Source: SAR202 cluster bacterium bin22 | GTDB lineage: Bacteria; Chloroflexota; Dehalococcoidia; Lucifugimonadales; UBA3495 | Assembly: GCA_002238505.1 (NCBI GenBank) | Contig: MPMM01000026.1 | Location: 1 to 37,877 of the forward strand | DNA length: 37,877 nt | Direction of reading: 5' to 3' | Part shown: one piece after another, positions 26,404 through 34,992 of the stretch | How positions within the stretch are numbered: position 1 is the first letter of the stretch | Layout of the letters: each line of letters opens with the position of its first letter | Position numbers and translations under genes: made by a program | Notes under the pieces: model-generated | What the model was told of the DNA's origin: nothing | The model's database searches: none | What the model saw: the letters and a program-made list of their open reading frames with translations, nothing else

Positions 26404-28827
26404 CTACAGGACCTCCCTGACCTTCTGCTCTTCTGCTCCTTCGAACCACTCCAGGAAGTCCGCCACGGTGGAAAGGATACGCCGTCGGTGCGTGGCAGAA
26501 GGGGTGTAGGCAGCCCTGGGTCGGCGGCGCTGCCGCTGCCGGGGTACAGGGCGAGGCTGACCCCTTCCGGCTGGGCCGGGGCGTCCAGGGTGGCCGTGAC
26601 GGTCACCGGCCCGGCGCTTTCGCTCACCGCAGCCGCGCCCGGGGCCAGGGTCACGGCAGCGGGCGGGCCCACCCAGGTCTCGCCACCGACCCCGCCACTC
26701 TACTGCGTGCCCGTGCCGCTCCCGTCGTCCGTCACCGTCACCTTCACGCTGGGGCCGGTGGTCCCGTCCAGCCGGTCCACGCCCCACTTCTCCCGCCAGT
26801 CCTCCTCATCGAGGCCCAATTCCTCCCACATGGGCAGTCCCTCCAGTTCGCTGAACGGCAGGCTGTTGAATATGGGTTCGACCACCGTCGTCTCTCCGCC
26901 CTGGCACAATGAGGCGTCTATCTGGAGGTCCAGCCCCTCGTTCCACGGCAGCGCATACCGGTCCTCCGGCGGTCCCCACCAGGCGTCCTCCCAGAACTCC
27001 TTGCTGGGATACATCGGATTGGTGGGCAGCAGGATCCGGTGCTGCTGGTAAACCAGCCCTTCGGTCAGGCACTCCGGGCCGATGGAGTGGAAGTACACCA
27101 GCAGGGGCCACCGGGGAGCCTGAATCAGGCTCACGTTGAAGCTGCCCGAGCCGCCCTTCTCCACCTCCAGCTCCTGCGTGGACACCTTTACCGAGTGCCC
27201 GGTCAGATTCAGCGTCACCTGGATGGACCGGGACCACTCGCTGTGCCCGTAGGAGTTGCCGGCCCGCACCTGGAATTCGTAATTCGAACCGGGCGCCAGG
27301 CCGATAACCGTCACGCCGGTGGCCGTCCCGGGCTTCACCTCCCGGGGTTCGTGGACGTTGGACTGCCATTCGTAGTATTCCGCCTCCCCGCCGACGCTGG
27401 GCTTGTCCCATGCCAGCTTCACGAAGTTGCGGCCCACCTGGGTGACGCGCAGGTTCTCCGGCTCTCCCGGCAGATCGGCGGGCGCGCCCTCCGTCGTCGC
27501 GCAGGCGCGGGCGGCGAAGGGACCGACGCCCCCGGCGTAGGTCGCCGCCACCTGGTAGCAGTATTCCTGCCCCGGCAGCAGGCCGGTGTGCTCGTAGCGC
27601 CTGGGGCTGGTGCGGTAGCCGTGCTCCAGCGTCTGCCATGACTCCGGGGAGGCCGGGGTGTAATCTATGCGGTAGCCGGTGACCCGGCCGGCGCCGAACC
27701 CCGGCTGGTCCCAGGTCAGGTCGATGCGGCCCCGGCCGTCGGCCGTGGCCGCCAGATTCTGCGGCTGGCCCACCGCTTCGGTGGCGGCGTTGGCGAACAC
27801 CCAGACGCTCTCGAAGTCGGCGTTGCCCGCGCCGGTCCCCACCGCCCGCACCCGGTACTGCCGGAGGGCCCCCGGCGCCAGCGTGTCGTCGGTGTGTTCG
27901 TGGGACGTTGTCGTTGCGGAAAGCACGGTCCGGGTCTGCCCGGCCGGCAGCCAGTTCCAGGTGTTGCCGTCCGTCGAAAATTCGAGGTGGTAGCCGGTGA
28001 GGCTCACGTCGGCCACGGCTTCGGGTTCCCTCCACGACAGGTCCACCCGCGACTGGTTGATGGCCCGCGCGGTGAAGTTCCGGGGCGCGCCCGGCGTCAG
28101 GTAGTCCCTGGTGGCGGCGGCGAAGGCCCAGTCACTCTTCACGACCACCTGCTCGCTGCCGCTGCCCACCGTGCTCACCGCCCGCACCCGGTACTGCCGG
28201 ACGGTATCCGCCGCCAGCGAGCTGTCGGTGTGGGTGAAGCTCGTTCCGGGTTGTCCCGTCGCCGTCGCCACGGAGGTCCAGGTGTTGCCGCCGTCCTGGG
28301 AAAAGTCCACGTCGTAGCCGGTCACGGTCACGCCGTTCACGGCGTCGGGGGCGCTCCACGACAGAGTTGCCTGGGCGTCGCTGGACCCGCTGGTGCTGAA
28401 GCCCCCGGGCGCGCCCGGACGTTTCGCCGATGGCTCGGACCACGGCCCGGGTACATCAAAAATGTTCACCGCCCGCACCCGGTAGGCCGGATTAACGGTC
28501 TCGGAAGCCATGTCCACGTACATCGTTCCCACCACATCGTCCGCCACCGTAGTCCAGGAGTTGGCCGACCGCTGCACTTCGTAGTGGGACACCACGTGTC
28601 CGTTCAGGGCCTCCACCGCCTGCCAAGTGAGGATCTTCACCGCCTGCCTTTCCGTCGCCCGTACGCCAACCACCGCGTTGGGATGGCCCTCTCCGGTTCC
28701 CGAGCGGGCCGTGATGGTCGACGTGTCGTTGTCGCCGATGTAGTCGTAGTAGGCGGCGGTGTGCCAGCTCGCGCCGGTGTTGCCGGTGCAGGCCGTTTCG
28801 CTGCTGGCCGCTATGTCGTTGCCGTCG
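26404..28827 (-). pseudogene. 3' half of the transposon-split surface protein (FN3 repeats)
   Basis: Reading the minus strand from the transposon border, the frame is open from 28868 with no start codon: DGNDIAASSETACTGNTGAS, then at least five FN3 domains (for example YEVQRSANSWTTVADDVVG and PGAPGGFSTSGSSDAQATLS) and a domain around VSTQELEVEKGGSGSFNVSL, down to a TAG at 26700-26702. The same frame resumes behind the TAG with PPAAVTLAPGAAAVSESAGP (a Calx-beta-like domain). A further frameshift near 26520 is needed to reach the natural-looking end DFLEWFEGAEEQKVREVL. The 5' half is at 32893-34992. The C-terminus was thus already decaying or ends at the TAG. Confidence 0.8.
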
Positions 28828-28852
28828 GGGAACGTTAGGCACTTTAGACCCC
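28821..28852. repeat. Left target duplication and terminal inverted repeat
   Basis: GCCGTCG (28821-28827) is the 7-bp target duplication. The element then starts GGGAACGTTAGGCA, and the inverted repeat runs to 28852 (ending TTTAGACCCC), 25 bases in all, with one mismatch against the right end. Confidence 0.85.
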
Positions 28853-29170
28853 GGGACTTTCCCCGCTCTCAGCCCACCCCATGATCACGTACAGCATCAC
28901 CCAGAGGCACTGGCCGATGAATGGGACCAAGAGGATTAGCAACCACCTCGCGCTCATGTTCACGTCATGCAGGCGTTTGACCAAGCCGACGTTGAGCCAA
29001 AATAGCACCGGCACCAGCATGAATATGCCGAGGGCGTTCACTATCCCGCCGCCTCCCCCGATCGCGGCCAAGACCGCGATTAGGCCGAGAACATGCGAAG
29101 GGATTAGGTAACGAGTCCAATAGGCTTTGCGGCCAATGCGTCCGTGAAAGGGGAAAGTGAGAAGGTACAT
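28844..29170 (-). CDS. DUF805 membrane protein (transposon cargo)
   Basis: A 108-residue DUF805 family protein: MYLLTFPFHGRIGRKAYWTR, a first helix region VLGLIAVLAAIGGGGGIVNA, then LVKRLHDVNMSARWLLILLV and PFIGQCLWVMLYVIMGW. The FxGRxxRxxYW start and VKRLHD-x-N-S-RW loop are the family hallmarks. The function of DUF805 is unknown; it is often a small inner-membrane protein. ATG 29170 follows a GGGGG run. The stop lies inside the left terminal repeat, so the gene ends exactly at the transposon edge. It is the last gene of the cargo operon. Confidence 0.75.
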   Translation of the reverse strand: MYLLTFPFHGRIGRKAYWTRYLIPSHVLGLIAVLAAIGGGGGIVNALGIFMLVPVLFWLNVGLVKRLHDVNMSARWLLILLVPFIGQCLWVMLYVIMGWAESGESPGV

Positions 29171-29210
29171 ACGGGGAACCCCCTTTTGTGTGTCTACGTT
29201 CAACGTTGGC

Positions 29211-29627
29211 CTACCACCACCTGAGTCGGTGATACAGCCCCTTCAAAATTAGGAACAGCCCGAAGCCTGCACCAACTAGCGCGGCCCGGCCAACATTCTC
29301 GAGGAGGCCCCCTATCGGCCCTGGTTCGCCACCTATCAGAGTCGCCGGAATAAATACTGCGGCAACCACGAGTACCGCCGCACCGAATATGCTCGCTCCC
29401 CAGCGCACGGTCTTCAACCAATCTCCTTGTTCCCCTTTTCTTGCGCCCTTTTTGGCATCTCTTTCCTGCCGCCGGAGCGCGGGCATCTTCTCCTTAACTT
29501 CGGCGATTAGGTTCTCCGCGTATTCCTCTGTGTAGCCCCTGTCCACGAGATCATTCTTAATGGCGCGCTCGGACTTGCGCTGCCTGAGTTGCTGATAGAC
29601 TTCATCGGCCAGATTAGTTGCCATCAT
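29211..29627 (-). CDS. Two-helix membrane protein (transposon cargo)
   Basis: A 138-residue protein with a helical cytosolic N-terminal part (MATNLADEVYQQLRQRKSER and DRGYTEEYAENLIAEVKEKM) and two membrane helices (WGASIFGAAVLVVAAVFIPA; AALVGAGFGLFLILKGLYH). The RKSERAIKNDLVDRGYTEE part resembles short helix pairs in which a negative design binds a partner protein, but no family is named. AAGGAGG lies five bases before ATG 29627; ATG 29624 is an alternative. It sits between the lipoprotein (36-base gap) and the DUF805 gene (41-base gap), all on the minus strand. Confidence 0.65.
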   Translation of the reverse strand: MMATNLADEVYQQLRQRKSERAIKNDLVDRGYTEEYAENLIAEVKEKMPALRRQERDAKKGARKGEQGDWLKTVRWGASIFGAAVLVVAAVFIPATLIGGEPGPIGGLLENVGRAALVGAGFGLFLILKGLYHRLRWW

Positions 29628-29662
29628 GATTCCTCCTTGTGAGCTTCGCCCTGTTGGTTGTG

Positions 29663-30274
29663 TTAGCGATCTTCGGCGTAGGGAGAGGCAAAATACTGGA
29701 CCCGCTTGGTGGGAACCTCTTGAATCCAGTCCGGCCCTGCCGGTTGGAACCTTCGGAGGGTGATTTGATGACAGCCTACGTCGAAAGGCAGGAAGTCCCT
29801 CAGGCAATAGTCCTGAATGTCCATGTACGATACAAGAAGCGAGTAACAGCGACGCCTCTTGAACGTGTCCTCAGGGATTCTAGCGATGATCATGGCGTTC
29901 TTGTCACTGGTGCTTGCGGCTATCGGAGCATGAGCGAAAAAGTGGCTTCTGCGCGGCGCAGGGATATCTTGGTAACACCCCAAGAGCGAGAACGGCTCGC
30001 CATCCGCCCAGAAAGTTGGGCCGGATTCAAGCTGTCCGATTTTCGCAATCCTGTGTGGGTCTGTCGAACTAGGATGGGACAAGCCCGGGGTGGGCGTGGG
30101 CGCAGGAGTTGGCGTTGTCGTTGGTCGGGGTGTTGGCGTCGCAGGTAGTGGCGTGGCGGTGACTGTGATCCTGATTACTTCGGGTGGTGGTGGTGTGGGT
30201 GCAGGGGAGCGTTCGGCGCAAGCCAGGGTAAGACAAGTGGTCAGGAGCAAGAGCCAAAGAAACCAAAGGCGCAT
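29663..30274 (-). CDS. Pro/Thr-linker lipoprotein (transposon cargo)
   Basis: A 203-residue lipoprotein. The leader MRLWFLWLLLLTTCLTLAC has the lipidated Cys at residue 19, followed by a PT linker ([17 protein letters not shown]) and a globular domain with HRIAKIGQLESGPTFWADG, MIIARIPEDTFKRRRC and LLVSYMDIQDYCLRDFLPF. No family is recognised. AAGGAGG precedes ATG 30274, and upstream residues of the open frame are discarded. The style is the same as the chromosomal lipoproteins at 3.6-6.1 kb, so the element probably originates from a related organism. It is first in the cargo operon, transcribed away from the transposase. Confidence 0.7.
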   Translation of the reverse strand: MRLWFLWLLLLTTCLTLACAERSPAPTPPPPEVIRITVTATPLPATPTPRPTTTPTPAPTPTPGLSHPSSTDPHRIAKIGQLESGPTFWADGEPFSLLGCYQDIPAPRRSHFFAHAPIAASTSDKNAMIIARIPEDTFKRRRCYSLLVSYMDIQDYCLRDFLPFDVGCHQITLRRFQPAGPDWIQEVPTKRVQYFASPYAEDR

Positions 30275-30448
30275 CGGGAGCCTCCTTGCCGAGAATAAGG
30301 CTACTTGCGACAGGAACCCCATCCATAGCTTGCGCCAGCAAGGAGGCACGAAGGCCAAATCCTCGATAGCGCAAGCGGCCTGGTAGGCCAATGGGCATTG
30401 GGTCGTGAGTTTCCTGTCGCGCGGTAATGGTATCACCCAAATCCGGGA

Positions 30449-30547
30449 GTCTGTCAATATGGGGCGTTAGCGGCGTGTTTTGATACTTCATCCCAACGTT
30501 TGACAGACGCCCTCGTGCGGGCCTACGGTAAATTCTGACGTCTGTCA
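30449..30547. promoter_or_regulatory. Divergent promoter region with repeated TTGACAGAC boxes
   Basis: GTCTGTCA occurs at 30449-30456 and 30540-30547 and its complement TGACAGAC at 30501-30508. Read on each strand, this gives TTGACA-type -35 boxes: plus 30500-30505 with a weak TACGGT 18 bases on, and minus 30458-30453 facing the lipoprotein operon with a weak ATACCA 18 bases on. TGACAGACG (30501-30509) and CGTCTGTCA (30539-30547) form a perfect 9-base inverted repeat. This would drive both cargo operon and leader/transposase transcription, possibly under a common repressor. Confidence 0.5.
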
Positions 30548-30568
30548 GAGAACAAAGGAGGTGAAGAG

Positions 30569-30604
30569 ATGAAGAACAAGCATTCTCCCGGCCATAAAGG
30601 GTGA
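30569..30604 (+). CDS. 11-aa leader peptide overlapping a hairpin
   Basis: MKNKHSPGHKG is preceded by an ideal AAAGGAGGTGAAGAG, far better than most sites in this window. Its codons from the fifth onward form the left arm of an 11-bp hairpin: CATTCTCCCGG (30581-30591) pairs with CCGGGAGAATG (30605-30615), and the TGA lies in the loop. A ribosome on the peptide would therefore melt or block the stem. Downstream lie ATG 30627 (42-codon frame) and ATG 30704. This architecture suits translational or transcriptional attenuation of the transposase. Confidence 0.5.
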   Translation: MKNKHSPGHKG

Positions 30605-30703
30605 CCGGGAGAATGTGGTGAAGGAGATGGGAACTCCATCTACAACAATTAGCACATATGAGCTGACAAATACACAATTACCCAAACTTAAGAAGGTGAA
30701 AAA

Positions 30704-30985
30704 ATGGGAAAAAACTCCATCACCGGCCCGGCCATTGCGCTCTACGGTCCGATAAATGGGACCTGTCATTGCGAGGCCAAGTGCCCGGTCAAACCTAGGA
30801 CCAAGAGGCGGGTCTTTGCTCAGGGACACGACGCCAGATTTAGGTCAAACCACAAGTACCTACCTAGTGTTGGGAAATGGGTTTACGAAAAGCGTAATCA
30901 AAAGCGCAGGAGCCGCCGAAATATTGACAAACAGGCATCCCCCGTGGTAAAATCGAAGCATAATCAGAAGCAGGGGAAAGAGGAA
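30704..30985 (+). CDS. CxC / GHDAR small zinc-type domain in frame with the transposase
   Basis: With its own site AAGAAGGTG before ATG 30704, this segment encodes GPINGTCHCEAKCPVKPRTK, RVFAQGHDARFRSNHK and a basic tail KRNQKRRSRRNIDK. CHC, C and the GHDAR block recall small phage-type proteins with a CxCG-FxxGHD pattern. No stop separates it from the transposase start at 30986, so it could be a fused N-terminal domain of a 210-residue product or simply lack a stop. The internal promoter at 30924-30953 favours a separate transposase start. Confidence 0.45.
30924..30953 (+). promoter_or_regulatory. Transposase promoter
   Basis: TTGACA (30924-30929) and TAAAAT (30948-30953) are 18 bases apart, a near-consensus sigma-70-type promoter, 32 bases before the proposed transposase ATG at 30986 (site GAAAGAGGAA). 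Confidence 0.65.
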
Positions 30986-31979
30986 ATGGTCGCCGGAACG
31001 AAGACCAAGAAGCAAAGCGGGCTTTCTCGCCAGGAAAAAGATGAACAGGACGTAATCGGCATTTTCCAGTTCAATCGCCTGTTTCCCGATGAGGAAGCAG
31101 CAATCGCCTTCGTGGAGGAGAGACGCTGGAACGGCACCCCGGAATGTCCCCGCTGTGCTTCAACGAACGTTTACAGGGTCGAGAACAAGAAGCCCCAGTC
31201 TCACAGGTGCAGGCCCTGCAAGCGCTATTTCAGCGTTAAGACCAACACAGTCTTTCAGGGAACCCAAATTCCGATGGTGAAATGGCTTCTGGGGATCCAC
31301 CTCATGCACAGTTCCCGCAAGGCAACTTCATCGTGAACTTGAAATTTCCGCCCCTGCCGCCTGGCATCTGGGTCACCGGATTCGTAAGGCTATGGAGTCC
31401 AAAGAGATTCCGTGGCTTGAAGGGATAGTTCAGATTGATGAAGCCTATCTTGGCGGTAAGCCTAAGAACATGCACCGCGACAAGAGAGAAAAGCTTCGTG
31501 ATAACCGCGACAAGAACAAGATGATGGTCATCGGATTCCGTGACCACGAGGGCAAGATGCTGGCTTTCCCCATCGCCCGCCCAAATTCCAGCATTATCCG
31601 TGATGCGGTCAGAGACCACGTTAAGAAGGGCTCAACAATCCTCACGGATGGATTGCCGGCTTACCGACCCCTCGGACGGGAAGGCTACAAACACGAATGG
31701 GTTGACCATTCGGTGGGTGAATACGTCCGGGGCATGGCGACCACCAACGGCGTTGAAAGTTTTTGGGCCCTGCTCAAAAAGGGATACGAAGGGACGTACC
31801 ACCGGATGGCTATTTACCACATTAGAAGGTACGTGAACGAGTTCAGCTACCGGTACAACATAGGGCAAGGCTGTGGGCCACGGACGATTGGGAAATTGCT
31901 CGACAATGCCGTGGGATGCAGGCTCAAGTACCGGGTCCTGAGAGGACTCCAGCCCGCAGATTGTTTGGCTAATGCCTAA
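30986..31979 (+). pseudogene. IS1595-family transposase, frameshifted
   Basis: The first frame (to 31336) has the zinc ribbon ECPRCASTN with HRCRPCKRYFSV and the following TNTVFQGTQIPMVKW. The rest is in another frame: ELEISAPAAWHLGHRIRKAM, then VQIDEAYLGGKPK (first Asp), ILTDGLPAYR (second Asp) and GVESFWALLKKGYEGTYHRM (third acidic site), ending RYNIG and a basic tail. The break is at about 31330, where family alignment from memory also suggests a few codons are missing, so a small deletion rather than a programmed shift is likely. IS1595 (ISXO2-like) assignment rests on these motifs. Confidence 0.8.
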
Positions 31980-32330
31980 GTGTCATCACTTGCCGCAATA
32001 CTTCCTATTTCGTTTTGCCCCCTGACAGGGCGTCACCCACTATACAGCGTTTCAGGCCTGTGGTATAAGAAAGGGGTGGTTGCTCCACCGGAGCTTACCC
32101 GCCAGGTAAGTTCCACCACCCGGAGCAACCACCCTCGAAAGCGCCTCCGCAACACCTATATCAGCCAGATAGAGGGTGACCGGAGGCGCTTCTTGCCGCC
32201 GCAACTGCGCGGATGCCTGCTACCATTAAATCATGGTTGTCAAATTCTGAAGTTCGCCACAACGTTAGCTATTGCCAGCTAGTAATCCCCTGTGCTTTAC
32301 TCCCTCTACCCACACAAGCAGGAGCGAGCC
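31980..32330 (+). other. Cargo intergenic region with structured DNA
   Basis: No gene lies between the transposase and the 174-aa gene. The stretch is dominated by the inverted-repeat block at 32074-32191 described separately. AGGAG at about 32320 serves the next gene. Confidence 0.5.
32074..32191 (+). ncRNA. Candidate structured RNA: two strong hairpins with an alternative stem
   Basis: GGGTGGTTGCTCC (32074-32086) pairs perfectly with GGAGCAACCACCC (32122-32134), with CTTACC/GGTAAG nested inside. AAGCGCCTCCG (32139-32149) pairs perfectly with CGGAGGCGCTT (32181-32191). GCTCC (32082-32086) can instead pair with the nearer GGAGC (32090-32094), so two folds compete. There is no T-run after the second stem. 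It lies between the transposase and the 174-aa gene; an RNA regulator, a sub-terminal transposon structure or a small palindromic insertion are all possible. Confidence 0.4.
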
Positions 32331-32855
32331 ATGCAAGAACGCCTTGGACGCGCCGTAGACGCTCTACTCAGGCCCAAGCAACCGGAGCCCGCCGAGTATG
32401 TTCGGGTTCTCCTGGTTCATGGGGGCACTCCACCAGCCTATAACCTTGAAGGGGATGCCCAGATCGTGGCCCAAGTGGTAGGTGTCCCAAACGATAAGTT
32501 CCTTGACGTCCCGGGGACTCCTCTATTCGACCTCCTGATTTCTGAAACGGATGCTCTTTGTGTTGACACCACTCTCAGATATTTGTCCGTGCGAAGGCCC
32601 CCGGTGTTCGTCCTGCTTGGGCAGGACATCAACCAGAGCCGACAGGAGACTGTCAAAGCCAAGGCAGAGCGGATGGGCTACGAAGTCCGGTCGGGAAAGC
32701 TCTCGGATGGGGCAGAGGTAGTGGCGGGGACTTTGATAGGGGTTGCGCCCAGATGGGAAAGCCTTGTGCTATTGGAATTTGATGACCCCCTAGCGTTCGA
32801 CTCCCAAGGGATCATCAATGAGGCCGTAAAACTGGCGAAGTGGACAGGGGAGTAG
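32331..32855 (+). CDS. Transposon cargo protein of unknown function
   Basis: A 174-residue soluble protein. MQERLGRAVDALLRPKQPEP is followed by alternating beta strands and helices: YVRVLLVHGGTPP, AQIVAQVVGVPNDKF, LFDLLISETDALCVDTTLRY, PPVFVLLGQDINQSRQETVK, AERMGYEVRSGKLSDGAEVV and VLLEFDDPLAFDSQGIINEA. It reads as a small alpha/beta fold with a GHGGTPP-like turn, but no family is recognised. AGGAGCG precedes ATG 32331. It ends 12 bases before the right terminal repeat, so it is genuine cargo, not host sequence. Confidence 0.6.
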   Translation: MQERLGRAVDALLRPKQPEPAEYVRVLLVHGGTPPAYNLEGDAQIVAQVVGVPNDKFLDVPGTPLFDLLISETDALCVDTTLRYLSVRRPPVFVLLGQDINQSRQETVKAKAERMGYEVRSGKLSDGAEVVAGTLIGVAPRWESLVLLEFDDPLAFDSQGIINEAVKLAKWTGE

Positions 32856-32867
32856 GGTTGCGGGCCG

Positions 32868-32899
32868 GGGGTCTAAACTGCCTAACGTTCCCGCCGTCG
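32868..32899. repeat. Right terminal inverted repeat and target duplication
   Basis: The 25-base end (GGGGTCTAAACTGCC onward to CGTTCCC, 32868-32892) is the complement of the left end with one mismatch. GCCGTCG at 32893-32899 repeats the 7-mer found left of the element. Confidence 0.85.
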
Positions 32900-34992
32900 C
32901 TGCCGATGCAGACCGCGTAGTCCTGGGTGTTGGCGATGGCGGCGGTGATGTCAGCGGGCGTCGCGAGGGTGGTGATAAGGCTCAGGGTTGGCGTCTCGGT
33001 CAGGCCGGAGGCCAGCCGGCCATCCGGGGTGTGCAGCTCGCCTATGGTCCAGACCCCCCGACAAAGACCGCTCTGGCAGGCCCCCTCGGTGTAGATTCCC
33101 TCGCTGGGGATGGCCTCCGCTCCCTCCGGCACGCCTTCCAGCGTCACCCGGGCGGCGGGTGCGGCGTCCGGCCCATTGTTTATGGCCGCTACGGTATAGG
33201 CCTTCTGGCCGGCGCCGACTTCGGGGCTCGGCCCGGCGTCCCGCACCCCCAACTCCGCCACCGGGCCCACGTGGAAGGTGTAGCGCCCCGTGTCGGTGTC
33301 TGTCGTTTCCGTGTCCGTGTGCGTGGCCCCCATCGTAATGTCCGCAACGTAGGTGCCGAGGGTCCCGAATTCAACGACGACGGACAAGAACTTTAAAGTT
33401 GTGTCTATTGGGCCAAGTGACTTCTTGCTCTTCGCGTCCAGGATGGTGAACCCGACATTCCCCGCGTTGACAATTTTCATGCTGCCCGGCAGCGTGCCCA
33501 CACCGGCGATGGCGAAGGTGTAGCTCGTATAAGCCGGTGAAGGCAGGTCGAATGCGACAATCACGCCTGGGATGATGCCCGCCTGCGTCCCACCGGCAGT
33601 GATAGCGGTGGCGCTGCCGGTGCGCCACACCAGGTTCGCCCCATTTCCTTCCCGCGCCTCAGCGGTATCCTCCACGTTTAGCACGATGCTCTCCGGCTGC
33701 AGAATGGTGACATCAATGGGGACATCCCCGAAGTCAGTTAGCCTGGCGTCGTTCCGGGCGTTGCCGATGCCACGCTCCAACATGTCAACGCGACTTATGG
33801 GAACCACCAGTTCCAGGGCATCCTGGGCGGTGCAGGGGTAGGCGGTCTCCCCGACGCAGGGATAGACGGTGAAAGGCCGGAATCCGTCCCCCTCGGTCGG
33901 CGGCGTAATGTGCTCGCCGACCTCGTCCCGGATCAACACCGTCGGGTCCTCGCCCAGGCATATCCGGCCCCGGTTGTTCCGCTGGGTATTCCGATTATCC
34001 GGTGTCAGATCAAGGGCAGGTCTCTCCGGGGGCACAACGTTGTCCAGCTCCGCGGTCAGGCACGCCTCTTCCAGGGGGACGGCGCCGGTGTACCGGACCT
34101 CTACGGGCATCTCTATGTTCAGGTGACCAGTGGGCTCAGGAACATAACCGAGATCCCAGATCCCGGTGGACAGATCGAAAGAAGAGCTGATCGAAATTTG
34201 GCTACCAGTTTCGCCGAACATGCCACTCGGGGCGTTGGCGCTCACCAGATCCAAACCCGGGGAAGGGCTCACCTTCACCCGGACCTCGTGCATGTCGTGA
34301 GAGTAATGAAGAGTGTCGTGATAGGCATCATCATTTCTAAACCTGACGGTGAAGTCAACCGTATCGTTCGCCTGGGGGAACAGGACTCCGCGCAGCAGCA
34401 TGTCCACAACGGCATCCCCTTCGGCTGCGTGCTCGCCAAAGGAAAACTCTTTCCATGCCTCGTGCGTCACGTTGTTGTACCGAAACATAGGTTCCTCCTT
34501 GGGTACGGAACTGATGATCTCCCCGCGCCCTTTCACTAGGGTCTCGCCTTGGCTTCGGCTTGCCGCAGTTCCATCAGACTTCAAACCAATGCTAGTGTAC
34601 AAATGCAATTCAGCCGTTTCGCCAGGTCGAAGGTTTCTGAAGTGCCATATTCCCGTTGCCGGGTCAAAGTGCCCAAACTTCGGATCAAGGCCTGTTGCGG
34701 CTTGGCCGATTGGTACCGACGACACAACTGTAACGTCACCACGGTAGGGAATGAATGTGACCTTGACCTGTCCGCTGTGGGCGTGTTGTCCGCCCTGGTT
34801 GGTCAGTATAAATATCCAGCTGATGAAGCCGTCCGCACGAACAGATATGCCGTGCCGATAACGGAGAGCCAGGTCGTGAGGGGGCGGGGGTTCCTGGGCC
34901 TGGGCGACCTGAGGGGCAAATGCCGCCGCCAGGATCATAGCGACGGCCATAGCCAAGAGTAGTGCCTTCGGTTTTGATTCCATTAAACGCAT
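32893..34992 (-). pseudogene. 5' half of the transposon-split surface protein (DUF11-type)
   Basis: Minus-strand start ATG 34992 (GGGGG nine bases upstream) with signal peptide KALLLAMAVAMILAAAFAPQ and cleavage near AQAQ. It is followed by about 660 residues of beta-sandwich domains of the DUF11/CARDB kind (SWIFILTNQGGQHAHSGQVK, VDFTVRFRNDDAYHDTLHYS, KAYTVAAINNGPDAAPAARV). The original sequence ends at QDYAVCIGSDG; the ORF then runs into the transposon end and stops at 32815 after a foreign tail. The true C-terminal half lies at 26404-28827. The gene was one secreted protein of about 1,406 residues; the 5' part may still be expressed as a truncated protein. Confidence 0.85.

Follow-up and report, generated by a model that had tools for sequence, protein, structure and literature searches.

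Within the window analysed here, the whole 37,877-nucleotide contig MPMM01000026.1 of SAR202 cluster bacterium bin22 (Chloroflexota, class Dehalococcoidia), we identified a transposable element of 4065 bp at positions 28828-32892. It is probably best explained as an IS1595-family transporter insertion sequence (IS) that was inserted in a host gene, lost its transposase, and carries two cargo blocks, one of them encoding a 174-residue protein that may be the remnant of a C5-cytosine methyltransferase. Should that protein prove to be a maintained pseudo-methyltransferase, it would show, in a form open to testing, how a transposon can retain an inactive modification enzyme for a different purpose; should it be no more than a relic, what remains is a defunct transporter IS of the ordinary sort.

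The element is bounded by terminal inverted repeats and a short target-site duplication, and it interrupts a gene for a large secreted protein:

28828-28852, plus strand: left terminal inverted repeat, GGGAACGTTAGGCACTTTAGACCCC, matching the right end at 24 of 25 positions
32868-32892, minus strand: right terminal inverted repeat, with the same 24/25 match to the left end
28821-28827: left copy of the 7-bp target-site duplication GCCGTCG, from sequence and empty-site reconstruction
32893-32899: right copy of GCCGTCG, 7 bp, from empty-site reconstruction
26700-28820, minus strand: 3' portion of the host gene that the element interrupts, which encodes a large secreted protein, joining in frame with 32900-34992
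32900-34992, minus strand: 5' portion of that host gene, joining in frame with 26700-28820

The best 28-base match between the ends is 26, compared with at most 18 across 30 shuffles. The repeats open with GG (GGGAACG...), as expected of the IS1595 family, and the 7-bp duplication is exact; the family duplication is 8 bp, and 7-9 bp in elements of the IS1016 subgroup (PMC12561309). When 28828-32892 and one copy of the direct repeat are cut out, the flanking minus-strand frames fuse into a single open reading frame (ORF) of 1423 codons, with the junction ...CIGSDGNDIAASS.... Because the repeats are clean, they point to a fairly recent insertion. The ends are single-copy in the genome, an assembly of 4.39 Mb in 58 contigs, and are absent from all 293 other genomes of the class that were searched.

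The transposase belongs to the IS1595 family and its reading frame is broken:

30986-31331, plus strand: first part of the transposase, with the zinc ribbon (PF12760), in the first frame
31332-31979, plus strand: second part, with the catalytic DDE domain (PF12762, NF033547), in another frame

The zinc ribbon matches PF12760 with an E value of 5e-10 (39.6 bits against a cut-off of 25.4), and the ISXO2-like DDE domain matches PF12762 (E 2.4e-41) and NF033547 (E 5.7e-42, 144 bits against a cut-off of 75). Alignment to 36 full-length relatives indicates that the catalytic domain retains its acidic residues and that about four residues are absent where the frame changes (31331/31332), consistent with the internal loss of about 11 nt. 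Programmed frameshifting was also considered and is less likely because those residues of the relatives are absent at the joint. An intact transposase, which is not needed for membership of the family, is thus lacking. The other IS1595 transposase of the genome sits in an element with different ends, and therefore no matching source of transposase in trans was found; a scan of a contig collection with the transposase fragment gave no match. In this account, an IS1595-family transporter IS entered a host gene for a large surface protein, duplicating 7 bp of the target, and its transposase was disabled by the internal deletion.

Four ORFs that are not involved in transposition lie between the repeats. 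IS1595 copies that carry passengers have been described as transporter ISs (tIS; Siguier et al. 2009, as cited in PMC3129680 and PMC8496243), and tISCpe8 and MTnSag1 are IS1595 elements of this kind (PMC5704250). The element described here shares with them an IS1595-type DDE transposase, terminal inverted repeats, a short target duplication and passengers unrelated to transposition, but it has no resistance gene, its transposase is broken, and its cargo lies in blocks on both sides of the transposase. Judged by these sequence features, it is a member of the known tIS kind. An earlier note, made from the sequence alone, had already recognised an IS1595-type element with 25-bp ends and tightly packed passengers that included no resistance or metabolic gene. 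The family assignment, the ends, the passenger ORFs and their packing were all borne out, and the family search agreed on the absence of resistance and metabolic genes; the note had not mentioned the 7-bp direct repeat or the split transposase.

The right cargo block is a single gene behind the transposase and on the same strand:

32331-32855, plus strand: 174-residue protein, proposed pseudo-C5-methyltransferase, from AlphaFold2 models compared by VIA and Foldseek, from hhalign and from a sister copy

The start codon of this gene is preceded by a GGAG stretch resembling a ribosome site, the stop ends 12 bases 5' of the right repeat, and among the cargo genes of the element this is the one that recurs. 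Across 197 genomes of the class, and with a profile over 400 genomes of the phylum, its sole relative is P0008 (33% identity), which likewise lies directly behind the transposase in L033, the other IS1595 element that this genome carries. A contig-collection scan with the two-sequence profile and a plasmid search found no match, and a sequence search of the PDB returned only an insignificant P450 match.

The earlier note had described the 174-residue product as an alpha/beta protein. Structure prediction gave a C5 methyltransferase-like fold, and both the likeness to a dead C5 enzyme and the recurrence of the protein had been missed. AlphaFold2 models of the 174-residue protein and of P0008 were built from the two-row alignment. 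In a VIA comparison with the first model, C5 methyltransferases make up nearly all of the best 50 rows, and the match to M.HhaI (Z 11.8, root-mean-square deviation 3.8, 149 aligned residues) runs from the start of the core, past the recognition domain, to the last helix. C5 enzymes also head the list for the separately predicted P0008 model (M.HhaI Z 10.3), and Foldseek places them at E values of 1.6e-3 to 6e-3 for the 174-residue model. The predicted models thus have a class-I methyltransferase core with the C5-type order. When profiles were compared, with C5 methyltransferases represented by about 30 sequences of which a few are fragments, the score was 26.6 and the highest of 60 column shuffles reached 19.3; the segments LRxLxVRRPPxFVL and GYEV fall at the C5 helix, at the strand before ENV and at the following GY-V.

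Both copies lack the recognition domain as well as PCQ (motif IV), ENV (motif VI) and the QxRxR region, and so do not have the catalytic parts of PF00145; because these are missing, the 174-residue protein cannot be classified as a C5 methyltransferase. We consider it a probable pseudo-methyltransferase, a catalytically dead C5 descendant of transposon cargo, on the basis of predicted folds and distant alignment. In such a remnant the Rossmann core and final helix would survive, and three parts would have been lost: the PCQ nucleophile, the glutamate of ENV and the target-recognition domain.

The models from which this is argued are middling and come from an alignment of two sequences (predicted local distance difference test score 66 and predicted template-modelling score 0.66 for the 174-residue protein; 58 and 0.48 for P0008), and several further results weigh against a C5 origin. 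The 174-residue protein has no Pfam or NCBIfam match (for PF00145, none at E <= 1), P0008 has no Pfam match at E <= 0.1, a plain hidden Markov model search did not separate either protein from shuffles, and Foldseek ranks other methyltransferases, METTL16 and PrmA, first for the P0008 model. The low-confidence models and the lack of a Pfam match would also suit a different Rossmann-like protein, for example a receiver-like one, unrelated to DNA methyltransferases, and receiver domains do occur among the VIA matches (6swb, Z 8.7, for the 174-residue model; 4qpj, Z 9.3, for P0008). We regard this as unlikely, given that C5 enzymes fill the list, that the match covers the C-terminal helix located, in C5 enzymes, beyond the recognition domain, that the profile comparison exceeds all shuffles in the right register, and that C5 enzymes occupy the same position in relatives of the element.

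Two other elements bear on the history of the putative methyltransferase remnant. L033 (G000:C53, 7032 bp) has a transposase that forms a sister pair with that of the element studied here in a maximum-likelihood tree (support 91/93). Besides the 174-residue relative at the same place, it shares a lipoprotein-like gene in its left half and strong stem-loops after the transposase; it differs in its ends (GGTACCGAATCC...), a 9-bp duplication, an intact transposase ORF, a larger size and otherwise different cargo. L041 (G086:C39) represents a deep transposase lineage adjoining the sister pair, and a C5-methyltransferase-type gene lies directly behind its transposase on the same strand. That gene encodes an intact 344-residue enzyme (PF00145, E 1.5e-82), accompanied by Vsr, whereas the 174-residue protein is without PCQ, ENV and the recognition domain; in a MAFFT alignment, the N-terminal DA(V/L)L-P segment and motif I of the 174-residue protein align with the N-terminal segment and core of the L041 enzyme; row L077 of that alignment represents a wrong ORF and was disregarded. 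The sister transposases, together with an intact enzyme at the same position in L041, suggest that transposase and C5 methyltransferase moved as a pair and that catalysis was later lost in this lineage, which would be the likeliest history. A reservation is that the L033 transposase branch is long (2.23) and its placement unsure. Because both copies are open at 33% identity with the same losses, the sequences suggest an early date for these losses and retention of the protein for another use.

The nature of that use is where plain decay enters as the main rival. The 174-residue gene could be a mere relic, a neutral and functionless ORF within a dead transporter IS loaded with random host cargo; the transposase is itself broken, neither the catalytic loop nor the recognition domain is left, and no relatives were found outside this genome among those searched. 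It would be unlikely for two unconstrained copies, at 33% identity and in elements with different ends, both to stay open and both to lack the catalytic parts, and the start codon with its GGAG stretch also argues against a relic. We therefore hold plain decay to be possible, though on balance doubtful. DNMT3L is a non-catalytic relative of DNMT3 that has a C5-methyltransferase fold and no catalysis, and it is among the Foldseek matches of the 174-residue model. The likeness is one of kind only: beyond the fold there is no evidence of common descent, and the 174-residue protein is bacterial, transposon-borne and much shorter. By analogy with DNMT3L in mammals, we infer that the 174-residue protein would most likely act without catalysis, as a partner that binds DNA or protein and modulates either the element or a methyltransferase of the host. 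The further proposal that IS1595 transposons of this lineage turned a methyltransferase passenger into a maintained dead regulator of transposition or of a host methyltransferase is offered only tentatively.

The left cargo block lies on the strand opposite to the transposase and comprises three genes, the last ending on the repeat's own stop codon:

29663-30274, minus strand: 203-residue lipoprotein with lipobox LTLAC and a Pro/Thr linker, from sequence
29211-29624, minus strand: 137-residue protein with two hydrophobic segments, from translation; no family
28844-29170, minus strand: DUF805 membrane protein, 108 residues from ATG (119 residues from TTG at 29203), PF05656

Membership of DUF805 is supported by a PF05656 match at E 3.8e-15 (56.8 bits against a curated cut-off of 25.7), and the TAA stop (28844-28846) is supplied by the left repeat. 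Because the genes are spaced by 38-40 bp, as in a single transcription unit, with ribosome-site-like sequence 5' of each start, a single transcript is likely. An envelope location is the safest statement that their sequences allow. Matches to the lipoprotein in 35 other genomes were rejected as relatives, since the similarity is of low complexity and almost confined to the Pro/Thr-rich N-terminal part. No PADLOC anti-phage defence model covers any of the four cargo proteins.

The earlier note had proposed that this three-gene operon, as envelope-directed cargo, may form an undescribed selfish or host-interaction module in which the lipoprotein, two-helix and DUF805 proteins would act together. 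The tight packing between the ends and the lack of a resistance or metabolic gene are in keeping with such a module, as is the presence of Pro/Thr-rich lipoproteins (L047 and L057) or secreted proteins in other elements of the class. Open reading frames with a lipobox are also about three times denser inside class IS1595 elements than in their flanks (0.117 against 0.040 per kb; 9 and 21 ORFs, P = 0.011), a hint on which a broader envelope idea survives, the scan being crude and some of its matches doubtful. In none of the 37 other elements does any of the three genes convincingly recur; the lipoprotein has a single match there (L057), which is Pro/Thr-rich. The two-helix protein has no relative in the 118 other genomes searched and no family match, and the DUF805 protein has ordinary relatives, 29-42% identical, in 13 other genomes as well as elsewhere in its own genome, at varied locations. 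The spacing thus speaks for an operon, and the non-recurrent trio, the single-copy ends and the different cargo of other elements speak against a defined module, which we now think very improbable. The note had proposed searching the ends and cargo across genomes; much of what it had named as contrary evidence, cargo genes found mainly outside such ends and copies with unrelated cargo, was indeed encountered.

Related transposases occur in 69 of 294 genomes of the class, the best at 40-44% identity. Among 40 related loci (L033-L072) examined for ends, 37 have clear inverted repeats (for example L038, L050, L052, L060, L068 and L069), mostly GGGGATTATA-like, and 34 of these 37 have an exact 8-bp duplication; 31 open with GGG, the end finder itself having required GG. 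The element studied here departs from this usual type in its 7-bp duplication and its ends. Sizes range from 1.5 to 7.0 kb (median 2790 bp), and cargo is the rule in the class because 36 of the 37 exceed 1.8 kb. Its content varies from element to element. N4/N6 methyltransferases of one homologous cluster are found in about 10 of the 37, Pfam identifies C5 methyltransferases in two (L041 and L059), and other cargo identified by Pfam includes Vsr, an MvaI/BcnI endonuclease, GIY-YIG, HNH, KilA-N, P63C, a trypsin-like protease and DUF3800. Secreted or lipoproteins are numerous, among them a secreted type with the motif EVRI-A--L-DGR-EFGLQQ in five elements (L042, L045, L051, L063 and L065).

Until now, IS1595 elements have been known chiefly as short ISs, with a few that carry resistance genes. 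In this class they appear as a widespread gene-carrying system, with a cargo made up largely of DNA modification genes and secreted or lipoproteins. The literature covered, which included few subscription papers, contained no report of Chloroflexota IS1595 elements with such cargo and no description of a bacterial transposon-borne pseudo-methyltransferase.

Some individual elements of the class have further features. In L051, the EVRI-A--L-DGR-EFGLQQ protein occurs together with a trypsin-like protease domain, the motif part having no Pfam family. L051 and L053 carry SocA/Panacea antitoxin-like genes, possibly parts of toxin-antitoxin pairs. The transposases of L060 and L062 are near-identical (branches 0.001 and 0.006) in different species, suggesting that a methyltransferase-carrying element spread very recently.

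Additional features were found around the transposase gene:

30581-30615: stem-loop of 14 bp between the divergent halves, followed on the minus strand by a T-rich tail (z -6.5 relative to shuffles, scored over 30560-30640)
30704-30985, plus strand: in-frame stretch 5' of the likely transposase start, with a C-x-C...C...GHDARF motif, from translation
30924-30953, plus strand: promoter-like TTGACA-18-TAAAAT (11/12), a consensus match only, just 5' of the likely transposase start at 30986
32074-32191, plus strand: two strong adjacent stem-loops 3' of the transposase (z -9.2 for 32060-32200)

The C-x-C...C...GHDARF motif resembles a small zinc-binding domain and has no Pfam match. The stem-loop pair consists of a 13-bp perfect outer stem (32074-32134) and a second stem-loop (32139-32191); the region has no Rfam match and is not repeated in the genome. 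These stem-loops are without a long T run and are possibly terminators. L033 also has strong stem-loops after its transposase (L033:9422-9878, z -5.8), of different sequence. An 11-mer, AGGGTGACCGG, which was not seen in L033, occurs at 30598-30608 and 32173-32183, in the stem-loops before and after the transposase gene, and a scan of the window found exact copies at those two sites only.

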